Part shown: piece by piece, positions 25,819 to 33,923 of the stretch
Position numbering within the stretch: the first letter of the stretch is position 1
Layout: each line of letters opens with the position of its first letter
Source of the DNA: Paludibacteraceae bacterium
GTDB lineage: Bacteria; Bacteroidota; Bacteroidia; Bacteroidales; Paludibacteraceae
NCBI GenBank assembly: GCA_024401565.1
Contig: JAKSKU010000025.1
Coordinates: 1-33,923, forward strand
Reading direction: 5' to 3'
Length of the DNA stretch: 33,923 nt
Notes under the pieces: model-generated
What the model was told of the DNA's origin: nothing
Seen by the model: the letters and a program-made list of their open reading frames with translations, nothing else
The model's database searches: none
Translations under genes and position numbers: made by a program

Positions 25819-26481
25819 TTACCAGTTTATTTGTTTAGTTTGTTTTTGTGTTGTCTGTTTGTTGCTTTTTGCGTAAATCTCATATGTAGAAAAAGAGCTC
25901 TTTCTCATCATTGAAGATTCTTTTTCATATTCTATTTCTTTTACTTTTCTTACCACCCTATTTTGAGTCTCAATAGAGTTGTTGATTTGAGCATCATACT
26001 TAGTTATTTCATTGTAACGTTCATGTTCACTCATTTCGCTCTTCTCTGGATGTTCTATCAATTCTTTTATCTGTGTAACATCCTCAATTATATTGTCTAC
26101 CAATTTAGTCGTATACAATAAAAGAGCTGTTTTTTCTTTAAGAGTAAGATAAGGTGAGGAACTTATAACTTCTGTACTATATCTTAGAGAAGAAACAGCA
26201 TTTTGTGATGTCTGAATAAGATCCGTAAATCGTGATAACATTTTAATTCGGTTTGACACTTTGGTCACCTTGTTCTTTATGCTATCCATTCTTGAAACTT
26301 GTGAATTCATCTTGTCTGCCTGATCAAGAAGTTGCTCTAAGTTGTTGAGTGCATTCTCCGCATCAGCTGACATGGATGCGATACGTTGTCCGAAGGCAGA
26401 TCCGTCAACAACAGTCACTGGTTGCCCATACATTTGTAAAGACAGCAACGCTCCTGCAATTAATGAAATGATTTTTCCCAT
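25819..26481 (-). CDS. traI: conjugative transfer protein TraI (DUF4141-like)
   Basis: A 220-residue exported protein. The signal peptide (about 1-19) is followed by a mostly helical, Asn/Gln/Ser-rich chain with coiled-coil character (near QLLDQADKMNSQVSRMD and RVVRKVKEIEYEKE). This and its place between traG and traJ match the Bacteroides TraI family; a VirB5-like pilus-tip role is a guess. The start codon overlaps the traG stop by one base (TAATG). Confidence 0.78.
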   Translation of the reverse strand: MGKIISLIAGALLSLQMYGQPVTVVDGSAFGQRIASMSADAENALNNLEQLLDQADKMNSQVSRMDSIKNKVTKVSNRIKMLSRFTDLIQTSQNAVSSLRYSTEVISSSPYLTLKEKTALLLYTTKLVDNIIEDVTQIKELIEHPEKSEMSEHERYNEITKYDAQINNSIETQNRVVRKVKEIEYEKESSMMRKSSFSTYEIYAKSNKQTTQKQTKQINW

Positions 26482-29009
26482 TATATTTTCCTTTTATGTT
26501 TTACATATAATTCTATAGCTTGAGCCATAGAACAGTTCTTTTCTCTTTTTATATTGAACAAAGTCGCTTTCTCTGGTCGTTCAGTCGTGTATGCCATATA
26601 CTCTTCATTGCTCACCTCGGTAGCGAAAACCTGACTTTTTTTCTTAACGGATACAAACACCTCCTTATATCTGTTTCTGTTGTTGAAGTCGAGTTTTTTA
26701 TTGACCGATAAAAGAATAGCAATCTCTTCTTTGCTTAGACCTAACGCTTCTTGTATAGGTTGCATATTCTCTTTATAGCCAGAGAAATCAAGAAGTATTT
26801 TTGTGTCTGCTTGACTCACACATACATCCTGGACTATTTTGTTGCCGACAAGATCCTTGACTTCCTGAGTCACAACGGCAATCTCGCCAAAGAACTTACG
26901 CACTGTCTTGAAAAGATATTTGACAAATTCAGCCATATTCTCCTTAGACAATGCTTGCCATGCTTCCTCGATTAACATAAACTTTCGTATGTTGTTATTG
27001 TTCAGTTTACGCATCTTCTCAACAAATGTGTCCATGATAATAAGAGATACGATAGGAAAAAGGGTTTTGTTCTCTTTGATATTATCCAGTTCAAATACAA
27101 TGAATCTATCTTCCAATAAGTTTAACTCTTTTTCACTGTTCAGAAGAAAGTCGTATTTTCCTCCTTTATAGTATGGCTGTAAATTGTGAAGTAAATTGCC
27201 TATATTAAATTCGGATTCGTTTACTTTATCTTTCTGAATAGATAAGTATTCACGAAATTCCTTATCTAGATATTCGTAATAAGAATTTAAATTTGGTTTG
27301 ACAGTACCCAATAAAATATAGTCAATATAATTGTTTATTGACATCTTCAAAAATGTATATTCGGTTTGAGACGTCTTTTCATCACCTTTCCAGAGCAATG
27401 TTATCAGACTTACAAGAGTACCGATTTTTTCTTCTGAATATACATTATCAGACACAAAGAAGGGATTGAACTGGATAGGATCATCTTCTTTGTATGTAAA
27501 ATATGTTCCATCTTTTCCGTTAGTTTCCTCTTTGATTAGGTTAGATAATCCTTGATATGAATCACCAACGTCGACTATTACGATATGTGTATTCATTTCG
27601 TAATACTGCATCAACATATTATTGATGAAGAAAGATTTTCCGCTACCAGACGGACCGACAATAATCTTATTTCTATTGCTTATCCATCCATTCTTCATAG
27701 GCATGTCATCGAGATCCACCTTGATAGGTATTCCGAAAATTCGGTCGCATAGGTTAATATGGAAGTTGCTATTATCTACCCAATCTTTGTAATTTGAGTC
27801 TGTTATTACAAAATCACATCCGTTGTTGACGAACGTGATAAAAGTGTCGTCCATCGGGTAATAACTTTCAGCTCCTGCTATTCCACCCCAGAAAATTTGA
27901 GGTGCTATATCAGAAACCCTTACTTGTTTGCAATCAAGAGAGATAAATTCTCTTTCTAATTTCGTGTTCTTCTTCTCAAGATTCTTTGCGTTCCTATCCC
28001 ATGTGATGATATTAAAAGCACATCTACAGATTCTTTCTTTGGTTTCTGCTTCGTGATCAATGAAATCGTCTGTTCTCTTTTTAGTGACTTCATTTACTTT
28101 ACTTAAAGAAGCTGTTGACCCAAGAAGGTTGCTTTTTCTTGTCAAGTCCTTGATGACATCTATATTGTCTTCAAGAAAAAAATATTGATTGTAGATATGT
28201 TCGAATCCAAGCCTTTCTCCAAGTGGAGATACAAATGAATTGCAAACATAGTACGGAGGTGTGCTATAATTGACATTGTAGCTGTGTGTCGCAGTATGTA
28301 ATGGCAATTGTTCACTTTCTGCTAAAGTATGAATAGAAACCAGCTTGTTTCCTATTATTAGGTCTCCATCTTCAGTATGAATATCATTTAATGTAATTAA
28401 GTCTTCCTGACCAAAAGACAAATTGGTATATAGATCAAGCAACCCGAACTTACAAGGTTGCTTTGTGCCAACTAAATCAGTAGTTGATAGTTTTCTGTAT
28501 GTGACACAAATGTTCTTTTCCTCATCAGATAACATTTTGAATCCAGCCATAGCAAGATCTACGGCTTTGAAAAAGGCAGTTTGCTCATTGGGATCACAGT
28601 TCTCTTGAGGAATTAGGGTTTTGCATAGAGGACTCCAGCGAGCTGTACTATTCTTTATTGCGTCCTTTGTGCTTTTGGTAAAAAAAAGGTAGCATTTATG
28701 TTTAAGATGATGTCGTCCATTGAAATGTCTGGCATAACCTCTTTGAAGGAAAGTTTCTTGTTTTCCCTCGTATTTGTATTCAGCATCGTAATAAATGTCT
28801 TGTTTATGGACTATGGTGTATGCAGGTAAATCTTTAATACAATTTACCCAGTCTGAATGCATCTTTTCATAATCCGAATCTCCTAATGTCCAAAGCTCAG
28901 GAAGATATATTTCATATCCTACTGTCAAATCTCCATTTTTGCTGATTAGAACACCATTTTCAATCTTATAAATCGGACATACATCGTCTATTTTTACTAT
29001 TCTGCTCAT
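26481..29009 (-). CDS. traG: conjugative transfer ATPase TraG (VirB4-like)
   Basis: An 842-residue cytoplasmic ATPase that energises assembly and function of the transfer channel. Walker A GPSGSGKS lies near residue 451, Walker B KFMLIEEAW near 675, and the TQEVKDL segment after it fits motif 3 of the VirB4 family. The N-terminal ~400 residues match the Bacteroides TraG family. Length is normal and no frame break is seen. The start overlaps a 62-codon ORF by 44 bp, an unusual overlap for this operon. Confidence 0.93.
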   Translation of the reverse strand: MSRIVKIDDVCPIYKIENGVLISKNGDLTVGYEIYLPELWTLGDSDYEKMHSDWVNCIKDLPAYTIVHKQDIYYDAEYKYEGKQETFLQRGYARHFNGRHHLKHKCYLFFTKSTKDAIKNSTARWSPLCKTLIPQENCDPNEQTAFFKAVDLAMAGFKMLSDEEKNICVTYRKLSTTDLVGTKQPCKFGLLDLYTNLSFGQEDLITLNDIHTEDGDLIIGNKLVSIHTLAESEQLPLHTATHSYNVNYSTPPYYVCNSFVSPLGERLGFEHIYNQYFFLEDNIDVIKDLTRKSNLLGSTASLSKVNEVTKKRTDDFIDHEAETKERICRCAFNIITWDRNAKNLEKKNTKLEREFISLDCKQVRVSDIAPQIFWGGIAGAESYYPMDDTFITFVNNGCDFVITDSNYKDWVDNSNFHINLCDRIFGIPIKVDLDDMPMKNGWISNRNKIIVGPSGSGKSFFINNMLMQYYEMNTHIVIVDVGDSYQGLSNLIKEETNGKDGTYFTYKEDDPIQFNPFFVSDNVYSEEKIGTLVSLITLLWKGDEKTSQTEYTFLKMSINNYIDYILLGTVKPNLNSYYEYLDKEFREYLSIQKDKVNESEFNIGNLLHNLQPYYKGGKYDFLLNSEKELNLLEDRFIVFELDNIKENKTLFPIVSLIIMDTFVEKMRKLNNNNIRKFMLIEEAWQALSKENMAEFVKYLFKTVRKFFGEIAVVTQEVKDLVGNKIVQDVCVSQADTKILLDFSGYKENMQPIQEALGLSKEEIAILLSVNKKLDFNNRNRYKEVFVSVKKKSQVFATEVSNEEYMAYTTERPEKATLFNIKREKNCSMAQAIELYVKHKRKI

Positions 29010-30778: not shown

Positions 30779-31102
30779 TTAGAAGAATAGAGCTTTAACC
30801 AAAGAGCTTAGCGCAGTAAGCACCAACACTCCACCTACCCAACCAGTAAGAGCTTTATTTGCATCCTGCTCGTTAGACAAGTGCTTCTTTACTACAGTCA
30901 AGATACCATAGATAGAAGCCAAACCACAGCATACCTGGACCAATGTCAAAAGTCCATTTCCAAGACCTTTGAGTGTACCTGTTGTTGTAGAAATCTGTTG
31001 ATTTAGAGCAGATGCGTCAAGATCTGCATACGAATTAGTAGCAAGTGACAAGCACAATGCCACCATACCCCATTTCAAGAGGTTCTTCTTTTGTGTATTC
31101 AT
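30779..31102 (-). CDS. traE: conjugative transfer protein TraE (DUF4134, pilin-like)
   Basis: A 107-residue protein with a signal peptide (about 1-27, ending SYA) and two hydrophobic segments in the mature part (about 43-64 and 82-105). Size and layout match the TraE family, which resembles VirB2 pilins. The start at 31102 is preferred to an ATG nine codons upstream because it gives a normal signal peptide. It lies 17 bp after the acidic membrane protein. Confidence 0.88.
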   Translation of the reverse strand: MNTQKKNLLKWGMVALCLSLATNSYADLDASALNQQISTTTGTLKGLGNGLLTLVQVCCGLASIYGILTVVKKHLSNEQDANKALTGWVGGVLVLTALSSLVKALFF

Positions 31103-31119
31103 ATAATTATGTTTATTGA

Positions 31120-31626
31120 TTAATTCCAATGAAAATTGTTTCCAATACTCTCGTATTCCTGTAATTCCTGAGTATTTCTGGTCTCAGAGAATGTTTGTTC
31201 GTTTGATTCTGCCTGAACAGGAACAGTTTCTTCTTCATTGTCATCTGCGGATTCTTCAGCCGAAGCTTCTACTTCCGAATAGATGTCTTCTATATCTATA
31301 GAAGCGTCATTTTGACTGACAGCTTCTGCCTGAGCAACAAGATCGTCTGCTAACTGAGAAAGGGCATCTTCAGATTGTGTCATATCTGGAATGTCTTCAT
31401 AGTTGTCATCAAACGCAGTTGCATTTTCAGGTTCTATTTCAGTATATTCTTCGGATTGTGCAGATTCTTCTTCGTTGGCAAGGTCATTTTTGTTTGTATA
31501 AGAACTTTGCTTTTCTTTAGGAGCTTTGCTTATACATCGATATGAAAAAAATCCGTCCAGTGCTAATGTTATTGGCACTGTCACACTAAGGAAACTACTC
31601 CATGATATATTCTCTATTCCGAGCAT
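31120..31626 (-). CDS. acidic membrane-anchored protein, first gene of the traE-traM operon
   Basis: A 168-residue protein. One hydrophobic segment near the N-terminus (about 9-30) is followed by ~130 residues extremely rich in Glu, Asp, Ser and Gln, probably disordered. No family recognised; similar short acidic anchored proteins occur before traE in related elements (TraD position). It is the first gene behind the hairpin-leader promoter at 31646-31686. Confidence 0.7.
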   Translation of the reverse strand: MLGIENISWSSFLSVTVPITLALDGFFSYRCISKAPKEKQSSYTNKNDLANEEESAQSEEYTEIEPENATAFDDNYEDIPDMTQSEDALSQLADDLVAQAEAVSQNDASIDIEDIYSEVEASAEESADDNEEETVPVQAESNEQTFSETRNTQELQEYESIGNNFHWN

Positions 31627-31645
31627 TATGTTTCTTATTTTAATG

Positions 31646-31686
31646 AATTATGCAATAATGTCTTTCCGAAAGACGGTGCAAAAATA
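31646..31686 (-). promoter_or_regulatory. promoter and hairpin leader of the traE-traM operon
   Basis: On the minus strand TATTTTTG (31686-31679) is a -7 box followed at once by CACC and a perfect hairpin GTCTTTC-G-GAAAGAC (31674-31660), then TATTGCATAATT (31657-31646). The hairpin would sit at or within a few bases of the mRNA 5' end. The same arrangement recurs before traA. No -33 box is evident. Confidence 0.65.
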
Positions 31687-31729
31687 CAAAAACTTAACGA
31701 GTAATGATATTTTGCCCTAATTTTTTTAA

Positions 31730-31764
31730 TCAAAATAGCCGTTAAGGGAATGTCCTTAACGGCT
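31730..31764 (-). terminator. intrinsic terminator of the traA operon
   Basis: A perfect 10-bp stem, GCCGTTAAGG with CCTTAACGGC (31738-31747 and 31754-31763), plus one more A-T pair, and a 6-nt loop. On the minus strand it is followed by TATTTTG. It lies right after the last gene of the traA operon. Confidence 0.88.
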
Positions 31765-31769
31765 TATAT

Positions 31770-31967
31770 CTACTTGTTTTCTAATTCCTCAATCAAAAAT
31801 CTGAGGGACATAAGAGTTTGTTTTGTCAAGCAATATTCATCCAAAGAAGTATTATCTTTTGATTCATGCACGACATTCGCAATTTCCGTCCATCTTCGTG
31901 TCAAAATGATTTCTGCAATTTTAAGAATCAACAGATCCTTATCTTTTCTATTTTGAATCTTCTTCAT
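31770..31967 (-). CDS. small basic protein at the end of the traA operon
   Basis: A 65-residue, predicted helical protein (KDLLILKIAEIILTRRW ... LMSLRFLIEELENK) with no recognised family. The ATG at 31967 overlaps the preceding gene by 20 bp; a start 21 codons further upstream would overlap by 83 bp and is less likely. A terminator lies 6 bp downstream. Confidence 0.6.
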   Translation of the reverse strand: MKKIQNRKDKDLLILKIAEIILTRRWTEIANVVHESKDNTSLDEYCLTKQTLMSLRFLIEELENK

Positions 31968-32286
31968 ATGCAAAAGAAAAAGGCAGATTTTTAGAAAATA
32001 TCTCCTTAATATGTTCTTTGTTCTGTTCAAAATATAGGTTCAGTATATTGTGTAAAATATCTGGTGTGCCTATTTTCTTTGGCATGAGTCTAGACAACAT
32101 CACAATCTTGTTTATGTCAGACACATACATTTTTGTCGTTTGCGTGTCAAGATTCTGACTGTCTTGGTTTCTACAAGTGAAAACTTCATCAAAAGTAGCA
32201 ATCTCGTTATCGGCAAATACTTTTTTGTTTGTAAATGCTTTTTTTTCTGTCACATCATTCTGAACTGATTCTATGTTTTCTTCCAT
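31948..32286 (-). CDS. TraB-like protein (DUF3408 type), copy 2
   Basis: A 112-residue protein whose C-terminal ~70 residues (TQTTKMYVSDINKIVMLSRLM ... DILHNILNLYFEQNKEHI) align with the preceding gene's product. The pattern recalls the DUF3408/TraB family, with a possible ribbon-helix-helix DNA-binding part. It lacks the long acidic N-terminus of its neighbour. The start overlaps the upstream stop (TGATG); a GTG one codon earlier is possible. Confidence 0.72.
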   Translation of the reverse strand: MEENIESVQNDVTEKKAFTNKKVFADNEIATFDEVFTCRNQDSQNLDTQTTKMYVSDINKIVMLSRLMPKKIGTPDILHNILNLYFEQNKEHIKEIFSKNLPFSFAYEEDSK

Positions 32287-32783
32287 CACTTCGTATAATT
32301 TGCAAATTTATTTGAAAGTGTCTCTTTTACTTTGTCCTTATTTTGTTCCAAGTACAAACTTAGAATGTTATGGATGATATCAGACAATGCGATTCTCTTA
32401 TTTATGCAATTAGACAATGTTGCCAATATCTGTACGTCAGGAATGTATAGTCTTACTGTCTGCGTTCCAAAGTCTTGCGTTGTTTGGTTTACACAAGAGA
32501 ACACATCATGAAATTCACTGATATCATGATCCGTGAATTTCTTTTTGCTTGAACGATCCATTTTTTCTGTCGCTGAAGAAGTTTCTTCTGGTGTCTCACC
32601 TTTAGGATCATTTGTACTTTGAGAAGATGCATTGTTTAATTTTTTCATTTCCTCTTCCCTTTGCTTTTCCCTATATTCTCTGATTTCGGTAAGAGCCATC
32701 ATAGGACGATCTTCAGGCACAGGTGGCAATTCAGCTAACAAGTCCTCGAATTCTGCAAATACATCAGTAGTGTTGTCTGCCAT
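32286..32783 (-). CDS. traB: TraB-like protein (DUF3408 type), copy 1
   Basis: A 165-residue protein. The acidic N-terminal third is followed by a charged linker, and the C-terminal domain (TQTVRLYIPDVQILATLSNCI ... DIIHNILSLYLEQNKDKV) looks like a ribbon-helix-helix fold. Its place just after the ParA-like gene and its size fit TraB of Bacteroides conjugative elements. It probably binds DNA and works with TraA, but that role is inferred. It lies 4 bp after traA. Confidence 0.75.
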   Translation of the reverse strand: MADNTTDVFAEFEDLLAELPPVPEDRPMMALTEIREYREKQREEEMKKLNNASSQSTNDPKGETPEETSSATEKMDRSSKKKFTDHDISEFHDVFSCVNQTTQDFGTQTVRLYIPDVQILATLSNCINKRIALSDIIHNILSLYLEQNKDKVKETLSNKFANYTK

Positions 32784-32787
32784 ATCC

Positions 32788-33570
32788 TTATTTTGTTATG
32801 ATTGAATAAAATTCGTCAATAAAGCTTCCTATTTTACCCTCATTGTGGTAGCCTTCGCTCTCGTATCCCTTTAGGTACTTATGTCTGATAGGCAACACAG
32901 TGTTCACACAATCAAACGACCTCATTCGTATTGAATCAGTCACTCCATTTTCCATTCTAATGTCTACATTCAATTTGTTGTAAGCATCAAGAATTTGCTT
33001 TTCTGCCTTACTGCCAGAAAAGAAGTTCCCTTGATTTGGAATCTTATTAAAGAATGTGACAACTTTCACATTAGGGTTTGTCTTCTTAATGTGATTTATC
33101 ATAATGAGTGTAGATTGATATTGAGATAACAAAGACAGATCTGAAAATTCAAAAGGAATGAATATATAATCCATCTTTGCAAGACACTGAAACATCGTGT
33201 CTGTACTTGCACCTAAATTCACTGAACCAACAAAATCAACAAAGACAAAATCTCCCAAACGCTCACGATAACGTTCGTCAAGAATAAATGGTGCCACATC
33301 CTTAGTGACATTATCTTTGTTTGGTGCTGAACCTAAACAACATGGAAGAATAGAATAACAAAGATTCAATGGTCGTTTTGATCTAACTGACTCAGAAAGC
33401 TTGGAATAATCAAGCTTACGTTTGTTCACCATTGAATGTTGTGGATAATCTGCGTCAAGAACTGTGACCTTTTTATTCTGACAGTATGCCAAGTAGTTGG
33501 CACATAAAACAGAAAGTGTTGTCTTTCCACACCCACCTTTCTGTCCGAAAAATGTAATGAATTTTGCCAT
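32788..33570 (-). CDS. traA: ParA-family ATPase TraA
   Basis: A 260-residue P-loop ATPase with the deviant Walker A KGGCGKTT (11-18) and the DADYPQ segment of the ParA/MinD family. The first position in a transfer operon fits TraA of CTnDOT-like elements rather than a chromosomal partition gene; the partner ParB is absent and the next genes are TraB-like. It may position or stabilise the circular form or organise the transfer machine. Confidence 0.88.
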   Translation of the reverse strand: MAKFITFFGQKGGCGKTTLSVLCANYLAYCQNKKVTVLDADYPQHSMVNKRKLDYSKLSESVRSKRPLNLCYSILPCCLGSAPNKDNVTKDVAPFILDERYRERLGDFVFVDFVGSVNLGASTDTMFQCLAKMDYIFIPFEFSDLSLLSQYQSTLIMINHIKKTNPNVKVVTFFNKIPNQGNFFSGSKAEKQILDAYNKLNVDIRMENGVTDSIRMRSFDCVNTVLPIRHKYLKGYESEGYHNEGKIGSFIDEFYSIITK

Positions 33571-33588
33571 TATATTTACTTTAACGAT

Positions 33589-33655
33589 AATTATGCAATA
33601 GTGTCTTTCTTCTTAAAGACGGTGCAAATATATAGCATGCTTTTTGAATAAGCAA
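33589..33655 (-). promoter_or_regulatory. promoter and hairpin leader of the traA operon
   Basis: On the minus strand TTG (33655-33653), a 20-bp spacer and TATATTTG (33632-33625) form a good promoter. CACC and the hairpin GTCTTT - 6 nt - AAAGAC (33620-33603) follow, then TATTGCATAATT (33600-33589). Apart from the loop and a few bases this equals the leader at 31646-31686. The traA start is 19 bp further downstream. Confidence 0.75.
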
Positions 33656-33733
33656 CATTTTTTACAATAATCTTGAAAAAATGTTATGTTACATAAACTT
33701 CTACAACACACATTTAGTAGTTATGTCTAAATA
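33656..33733. other. short AT-rich spacer between the traA promoter and the octamer array
   Basis: No gene or clear signal is seen. The ORFs that open here on the minus strand are produced by the repeat array. Confidence 0.5.
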
Positions 33734-33923
33734 CAACAATGCAACAATGCAAAGATGCAAAGATGCAAAGATGCAACAATGCAAAGATGCAACAATGCAA
33801 AGATGCAACAATGCAAAGATGCAAAGATGCAAAGATGCAACAATGCAAAGATGCAAAGATGCAAAGACGCAACAATGCAAAGATGCAACAATGCAAAGAT
33901 GCAACAATGCAAAGATGCAACAA
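33734..33923. repeat. octanucleotide tandem repeat array reaching the window end
   Basis: 23 complete 8-bp units plus a partial one, built from two versions: CAACAATG (A) and CAAAGATG (B), with one CAAAGACG. The order is A A B B B A B A B A B B B A B B B' A B A B A B A, which shows a higher-order ABBBAB pattern. All three minus-strand frames stay open only because the unit contains no stop. The array continues to the last base, so its full length is unknown. Confidence 0.95.

Follow-up and report, generated by a model that had tools for sequence, protein, structure and literature searches.

Introduction

The E. coli ompA mRNA carries a stabilising stem-loop at its 5' terminus. A further E. 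coli mRNA with such a 5'-terminal stem-loop, papA, appears in the reference list of PMC3997798, and the excerpted text of that article states that 5'-terminal structure stabilises mRNA in E. coli and that RppH and RNase E prefer single-stranded 5' ends. In Prevotella bryantii, a hairpin of -9 kcal/mol placed at -21 was not inhibitory (1.34 of control) and structures closer to the start accompany low protein; binding of S1 to unstructured 5' UTRs was proposed by the authors (excerpts of PMC3155529). For Flavobacterium, certain adenines together with low structure before the start accompany better translation, according to an excerpt of PMC6847099. Excerpts of PMC7366714 place the centre of the -7 element of B. 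thetaiotaomicron promoters at -7 and provide, with the RteR small RNA of CTnDOT, a precedent for small RNA control of a Bacteroidales tra operon.

We analyzed a stretch of 33,923 nt from a Paludibacteraceae bacterium (assembly GCA_024401565.1, contig JAKSKU010000025.1, positions 1 to 33,923 of the forward strand), referred to as the window. It contains two similar sites, each preceding an operon, and our best reading, held at about even confidence, is that they are copies of an RNA leader which one family of conjugative elements within this genus puts before its transfer operons. This leader would consist of a short hairpin, about 30 nt of unpaired, A/U-rich RNA containing the word TATTACAATT (here TATTGCATAATT) and the start codon. 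Like the E. coli 5'-terminal stem-loops, it would have a short stem a few bases from the likely start of transcription and upstream of the ribosome-loading region; unlike them, four of five mobA hairpins are not beside a TTTG box, and a conserved ten-base word follows the hairpin. The unstructured A/U-rich stretch before the start codon is shared with S1-type initiation regions of Bacteroidota as presented in the excerpts of PMC3155529 and PMC6847099; the present leader adds a hairpin near -33 and the word TATTACAATT. Among the open-access papers listed in our literature searches, none was seen to describe this module, as judged by title and beginning of the abstract.

Results and Discussion

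The initial annotation had claimed that two tra operons of the window start with the same promoter plus 5' hairpin module. This was confirmed by coordinates, a chance test and an assembly-wide count of the shared 14-mer. In a check of the window, both modules were found on the minus strand at the positions originally assigned. Site 1 (33632-33589) precedes a ParA-like gene and reads TATATTTG-CACC-GTCTTT-AAGAAG-AAAGAC-AC-TATTGCATAATT. Its parts are TATATTTG, the -7 box assigned to the parA (traA-like) operon (33625..33632, by sequence match), leader hairpin 1 with a loop of 6 nt (33603..33620, by pattern match and fold prediction) and the first TATTGCATAATT motif (33589..33600, by sequence match and the leaders of relatives, which have TATTACAATT in this place). 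Site 2 (31686-31646), in front of the leading gene of a DUF4134/DUF4133/TraG operon, reads TATTTTTG-CACC-GTCTTT-CGG-AAAGAC-AT-TATTGCATAATT, comprising the -7 box TATTTTTG of the traE-M-like operon (31679..31686, by sequence match), leader hairpin 2 with a loop of 3 nt (31660..31674, by pattern match and fold prediction) and the second TATTGCATAATT motif (31646..31657, by sequence match). The likeness between the sites is sharply bounded, with flanks poorly alike on either side.

The 14-mer TTTGCACCGTCTTT occurs twice in the whole 2.18-Mb assembly (rated 78 percent complete), namely at these sites, which are also the only exact matches of TANNTTTGCACCGTCTTT. The pattern GTCTTTN{2,12}AAAGAC matched twice in the window compared with 0.07 expected matches, and none of 100 shuffles reached two. 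When one mismatch to TATTGCATAATT is tolerated, the window is expected to contain 0.56 matches, and 3 of 100 shuffles reached three; a third exact copy lies outside any leader, upstream of a TAAATTTG box, at 1439-1450 on the plus strand. Among octamers in 195 upstream regions of the genome, a set that includes locus L023 of the element itself, TATATTTG ranked first for enrichment on the measure applied (26 vs 5 antisense occurrences). By eye, a -33-like TTG lies at 33653-33655, 20 nt 5' of the -7 box of site 1, and none was seen at that distance upstream of the -7 box of site 2. At both sites the stem begins 4 nt after TTTG. Given that B. thetaiotaomicron promoters have their -7 element centred on that position (PMC7366714, in excerpt), we infer that transcripts start 0-3 nt before the stem.

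Both hairpins are weak, with predicted energies of -5.1 kcal/mol (hairpin 1) and -4.1 kcal/mol (hairpin 2), and 47 of 200 (site 1) and 59 of 200 (site 2) shuffled sequences fold as well. The segment between hairpin and ATG is predicted to be unpaired in both leaders, which by eye are A/U-rich and free of a Shine-Dalgarno word; thus, the unpaired A/U-rich stretch before the start codon that characterizes an S1-type initiation region was predicted twice. No Rfam leader or riboswitch reached the gathering score in the window, where a tRNA was the sole match. Further, a scan of 88 TAnnTTTG sites of this genome (L023 included) revealed no general 5' hairpin after the box (mean z -0.17).

All genes of both operons discussed here lie on the minus strand. 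Operon 1 begins with a traA-like ParA/MinD-type ATPase (32788..33570; AAA_31 and CbiA; relatives at 28-32 percent identity), followed by two ORFs within 31948..32783 (32783-32286 and 32289-31948) that gave no Pfam match at E 0.001. A terminator scan located an intrinsic-terminator-like hairpin after operon 1, between the operons (31737..31764, minus strand), and site 2 therefore plausibly starts its own transcript. Operon 2 opens with an ORF (31120..31626) that is the positional counterpart of the relatives' 'WSWGDFLSVW' ORF, with likeness confined to the 24 N-terminal residues, followed by a DUF4134 gene (TraE-like, 30779..31129, domain match, with a weak TrbC/VirB2 pilin match). A TraG-family conjugative transposon ATPase (26481..29009, domain match) marks the operon as conjugative. 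No other tra gene in the scan matched its family strongly, and the designations traA/B and traE-M are taken from the initial annotation and gene order. Tandem 8-base TGCAACAA/TGCAAAGA units occupy 33731-33920 of the window, at the contig end adjoining parA.

A TraA search at E 1e-20 across the 357 other genomes of the family gave hits in 3, each of them a congener, with identities of about 30 percent. No TraA relatives were found in IMG/VR by single protein or alignment, and none in genome_contigs by single protein, while an alignment search of genome_contigs yielded four loci, i.e. the three known congeners and one partial locus (L036). The three congeners (G328, G329 and G332) keep the order parA, an ORF, and an ORF resembling the first ORF of operon 2 over 24 residues. 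This comparison was made with one congener (L010) and gave 11 of 24 identical residues at the start (E 5e-6, single comparison); full-length likeness is absent, and tblastn of the ORF against the element loci gave no match at 1e-5.

Before the same two operons, the congeners have a short stem ending 22-35 nt 5' of the start codon, followed by TATTACAATT or a near variant (TTTACAATT before parA in G328 and G329). The letters of the stem are replaced. For parA, the stem is GTCTTT in the window, GGATT/AATCC in G328 and G329 and GAATC/GGTTC in G332; for operon 2 it is GTCTTT in the window, TCTC/GAGA in G328 and G329 and AAGGC/GCCTT in G332. Within one relative, the two operons thus have different stem letters, whereas the two leaders of the window agree, and the simplest account of the identical stems is that one was recently copied or converted in the lineage of the window. 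The clade sample comprises at most five elements of a single genus.

Hairpin and word recur at further operons. A hairpin with a TATTACAATT-type word also precedes mobA (5 elements), and a hairpin with TATTACAATT or a variant precedes the operon upstream of a weak TraO-like gene (4 elements), which begins MAEENKE on contig C11 of the same assembly and has relatives at about 51 percent identity. All five mobA leaders contain CGCC/GGCG (inside a longer stem in two) or AGCC/GGCT, then TATTACAATT. C11 carries the weak TraO match and mobA, which lies within 0.9 kb of the contig end; on the window contig (C18), the distance from parA to the end is under 0.4 kb. Since mobA and parA are divergent neighbours in G328 and G332, we infer that C11 and C18 are parts of one element. 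MobA was found in 1 of 393 genomes of the order (its own) and in 5 of 9 congeners including its own, and neither IMG/VR nor the plasmids searched contained MobA relatives. At the right end of C11 (the end of L072), adjoining mobA, GTGCGTAAC/GTGCGTAAT-type repeats were observed.

Additional structures were noted in the vicinity of these genes. Several consecutive hairpins are predicted in the roughly 200 nt upstream of mobA in five elements (L072:16172-16391, minus; L128:9230-9449, plus; L133:17807-18026, minus; L074:10127-10346, minus; L075:2740-2959, minus), a candidate oriT or structured leader in which, for 12 of 63 predicted pairs, both sides changed at least once with pairing retained. 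Close upstream of a mobC-like ORF, hairpins of differing sequence are present in L128, L133, L072 and L074, followed by the word TATTACAAT in L074 only. A second leader set, in which TATATTTG is followed by (T/C)(A/G)TATG(G/A)AAATG and predicted hairpins, stands before accessory ORFs (L071:2085, L071:1446, L137:3579, L137:2621 and L132:1632, all minus; L130:9964, plus).

The initial annotation had proposed searching related elements for the 14-mer upstream of tra genes; in other genomes of the family, the 14-mer with its second arm was not found there. The pattern TTTGCACCGTCTTTN{2,12}AAAGAC is present in 5 of 358 family genomes including the window's own (4 of 357 others), the reversed control pattern in none. 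In the four other genomes, 14-mer and second arm stand before a tRNA-Gln gene, before rho and before small ORFs, the latter at two like loci and not tra by eye, so that 0 of 4 cases are tra (two judged by eye). Like the window sites, the leaders of rho (G079) and tRNA-Gln (G009), from other genera, have TTTGCACCGTCTTT and a complementary arm directly after the box, and because these genes are unrelated to those of the window, the string alone is no tra signature.

More distant loci were inspected as well. ParA-like leaders of other elements (L112, L114, L118) have TAnnTTTG and, by eye, no comparable hairpin. Four plasmid tra loci with DUF4134, DUF4133 and TraG in order lack the module before parA or DUF4134, and by eye it was not seen in the 25 leaders inspected among 30 DUF4134 loci. 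In genus g27, DUF4134 leaders have stems of 3-5 bp, which were judged too weak to use. In other Bacteroidales elements, hairpins that share a GGACTATCCA-like loop but differ greatly in their stems occur just before the DUF4134 gene (L037, L038, L077, L082, L083, L086, L087), and by eye this looks like a separate covarying RNA element.

For statistical analysis, we assembled a set of 17 leaders (parA from 4 elements, traE-like from 4, MAE/MSE from 4 and mobA from 5). All p-values given below are optimistic because the leaders are related by descent. The word after the stem is exactly TATTACAATT in 12 of the 17, TATTGCATAATT in two, TTTACAATT in two and GTTACAATT in one. Of 366 stretches taken from element regions, which include some neighbouring DNA, 11 had TATTACAATT within 45 nt of a first ATG, compared with 0 of 382 background stretches, while 300 scrambled words averaged 0.11 in element regions with a maximum of 4, reached by the same word shifted by one base. 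With up to one mismatch, TATTACAATT has 34 places in 342 kb of element regions, part of which must be due to chance, and 11 in 380 kb of background, none of them exact. As TATTACAATT was defined on some of the leaders later counted, the motif test is partly circular and its p-values are optimistic on this account too; the zero in the background and the recurrence at four operons are not affected by this circularity. A sample of 195 leaders, drawn from 400 kb of this genome, contained no exact TATTACAATT, and TTTG...TATTACAATT was not enriched genus-wide (40 matches vs 43 for the reversed pattern, 9 genomes). The motif signal is clearer than the hairpin signal.

Folding was compared for the 30 nt before the motif, with combined tests on the 16 distinct leaders (the identical G329 parA leader was left out); control leaders for the fold, stem-score and motif tests exclude L023, which belongs to the element. 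Mean energy was -5.3 kcal/mol for the set and -2.4 kcal/mol for 169 chromosomal leaders (Mann-Whitney p 9e-6 for energy and 4e-5 for z; Fisher p 5e-8). Values of p<0.05 were obtained for 9 of 17 leaders vs 18 of 169 controls, and two MAE leaders gave no signal in this 30-nt window (p 0.79 and 1.0). A stem-only score shifted the set more weakly (Fisher 3e-5, Mann-Whitney 0.0016), with 3 of 16 leaders vs 24 of 169 controls at p<0.05 singly. The hairpins are thus weak singly and visible as a set. Their end lies 22-51 nt from the ATG (median 34.5), and within 30-39 nt in 12 of the 16 distinct leaders.

In case of the parA stem, comparing G328/G329 with G332, 2 of 5 pairs are changed on both sides and 10 of 10 cells are paired (2 distinct rows); in case of the mobA stem, 1 of 4 pairs is changed on both sides and 20 of 20 cells are paired (5 distinct rows). 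As many both-side changes were reached by 128 of 500 (parA) and 97 of 500 (mobA) shuffles, while slid versions of the stem pair at most 70 (parA) and 53 (mobA) percent of cells. The operon-2 and MAE stems are out of register in the MAFFT alignment and were therefore excluded from the pair count, and a third trimmed alignment was left out.

Taken together with the leaders of relatives, these data bear on how the hairpin acts. If a dimeric repressor or activator bound a DNA operator just 3' of the transcription start, this would fit the perfect GTCTTT/AAAGAC dyad at both sites and its placement where a roadblock repressor could sit. However, the distance between half-sites differs by 3 bp in the window, and the relatives' stem letters differ between operons of one element as well as between operons in the same place. 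Fixed spacing and conserved half-sites were therefore not found (loops of 3 vs 6 nt, stems replaced), and since both loop length and stem letters vary, we regard an operator as distinctly unlikely. The original preference for an RNA-level hairpin holds up better, as the relatives replace the letters of the stem and keep the stem. An operon start is the usual place for attenuation, which the position of the hairpins would suit, yet no T-run follows either hairpin and neither is among the four terminator-like sites of 31500-33923, the scan returning the site after operon 1 instead; for lack of a T-run, an attenuator or intrinsic terminator is extremely unlikely. If about 42 bp had recently been duplicated or converted, with a hairpin under no selected function, this would explain the sharply bounded identity, which extends to the stem letters even though these differ between the two operons of the relatives, and would agree with individually weak hairpins. 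It accounts for the shared stem letters but not for the stem and motif that relatives keep in the same places with other letters, nor for those at two more operons, and we consider it unlikely as the whole explanation.

A trans-acting RNA-binding protein or small RNA, encoded by the element or the host, may read the hairpin together with UAUUACAAUU and co-set translation or stability of the transfer operons, which is possible though not probable. General A/U-richness would not require the same ten bases to be kept before four different operons, and RteR is a precedent for a small RNA acting on a tra operon; on the other side, five of the 17 leaders, including the window's own two, depart from the exact word. 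That hairpin and UAUUACAAUU are the target of a dedicated post-transcriptional regulator, forming one translational regulon of the element, is doubtful. The link between the two operons suggested by the initial annotation is supported and wider than proposed, as mobA and the operon upstream of the TraO-like gene carry a hairpin with TATTACAATT or a variant too. Stem letters are not that link, the two operons of one relative having different stems. Likewise, a position at the extreme 5' terminus is not what is most constant about the hairpin: before mobA it stays close to the start codon, yet 4 of the 5 elements have no TTTG next to it.

The common leader, with its architecture, its recurrence at four operons, its locally specific motif and its replaced stem letters, suggests protection of the messages or help with their translation. 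In such a leader, the module would comprise a cap hairpin, an open loading stretch and a conserved core word. Since Bacteroidota do not rely on Shine-Dalgarno pairing, ribosomes would load on unstructured A/U-rich RNA, and the hairpin may close off upstream RNA and keep the loading stretch open. Where it directly follows the promoter, the hairpin would leave few unpaired 5' bases and may thereby slow decay from the 5' end.

Conclusion

In conclusion, the two sites of the window are best read as copies of a leader found before several transfer operons of one conjugative element family. To our knowledge, the choice of start codons without Shine-Dalgarno pairing in Bacteroidota and the coordination of several transfer operons are both open questions. 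If a dedicated regulator did act on the module, its regulon would join mobA and parA, for DNA processing, with traE-M, for the mating channel, and with the operon that precedes the TraO-like gene. Under the preferred reading of a common RNA leader, a compact leader at four operons with natural variants of stem, loop and motif would provide ready constructs for studying both start-codon choice and operon coordination.
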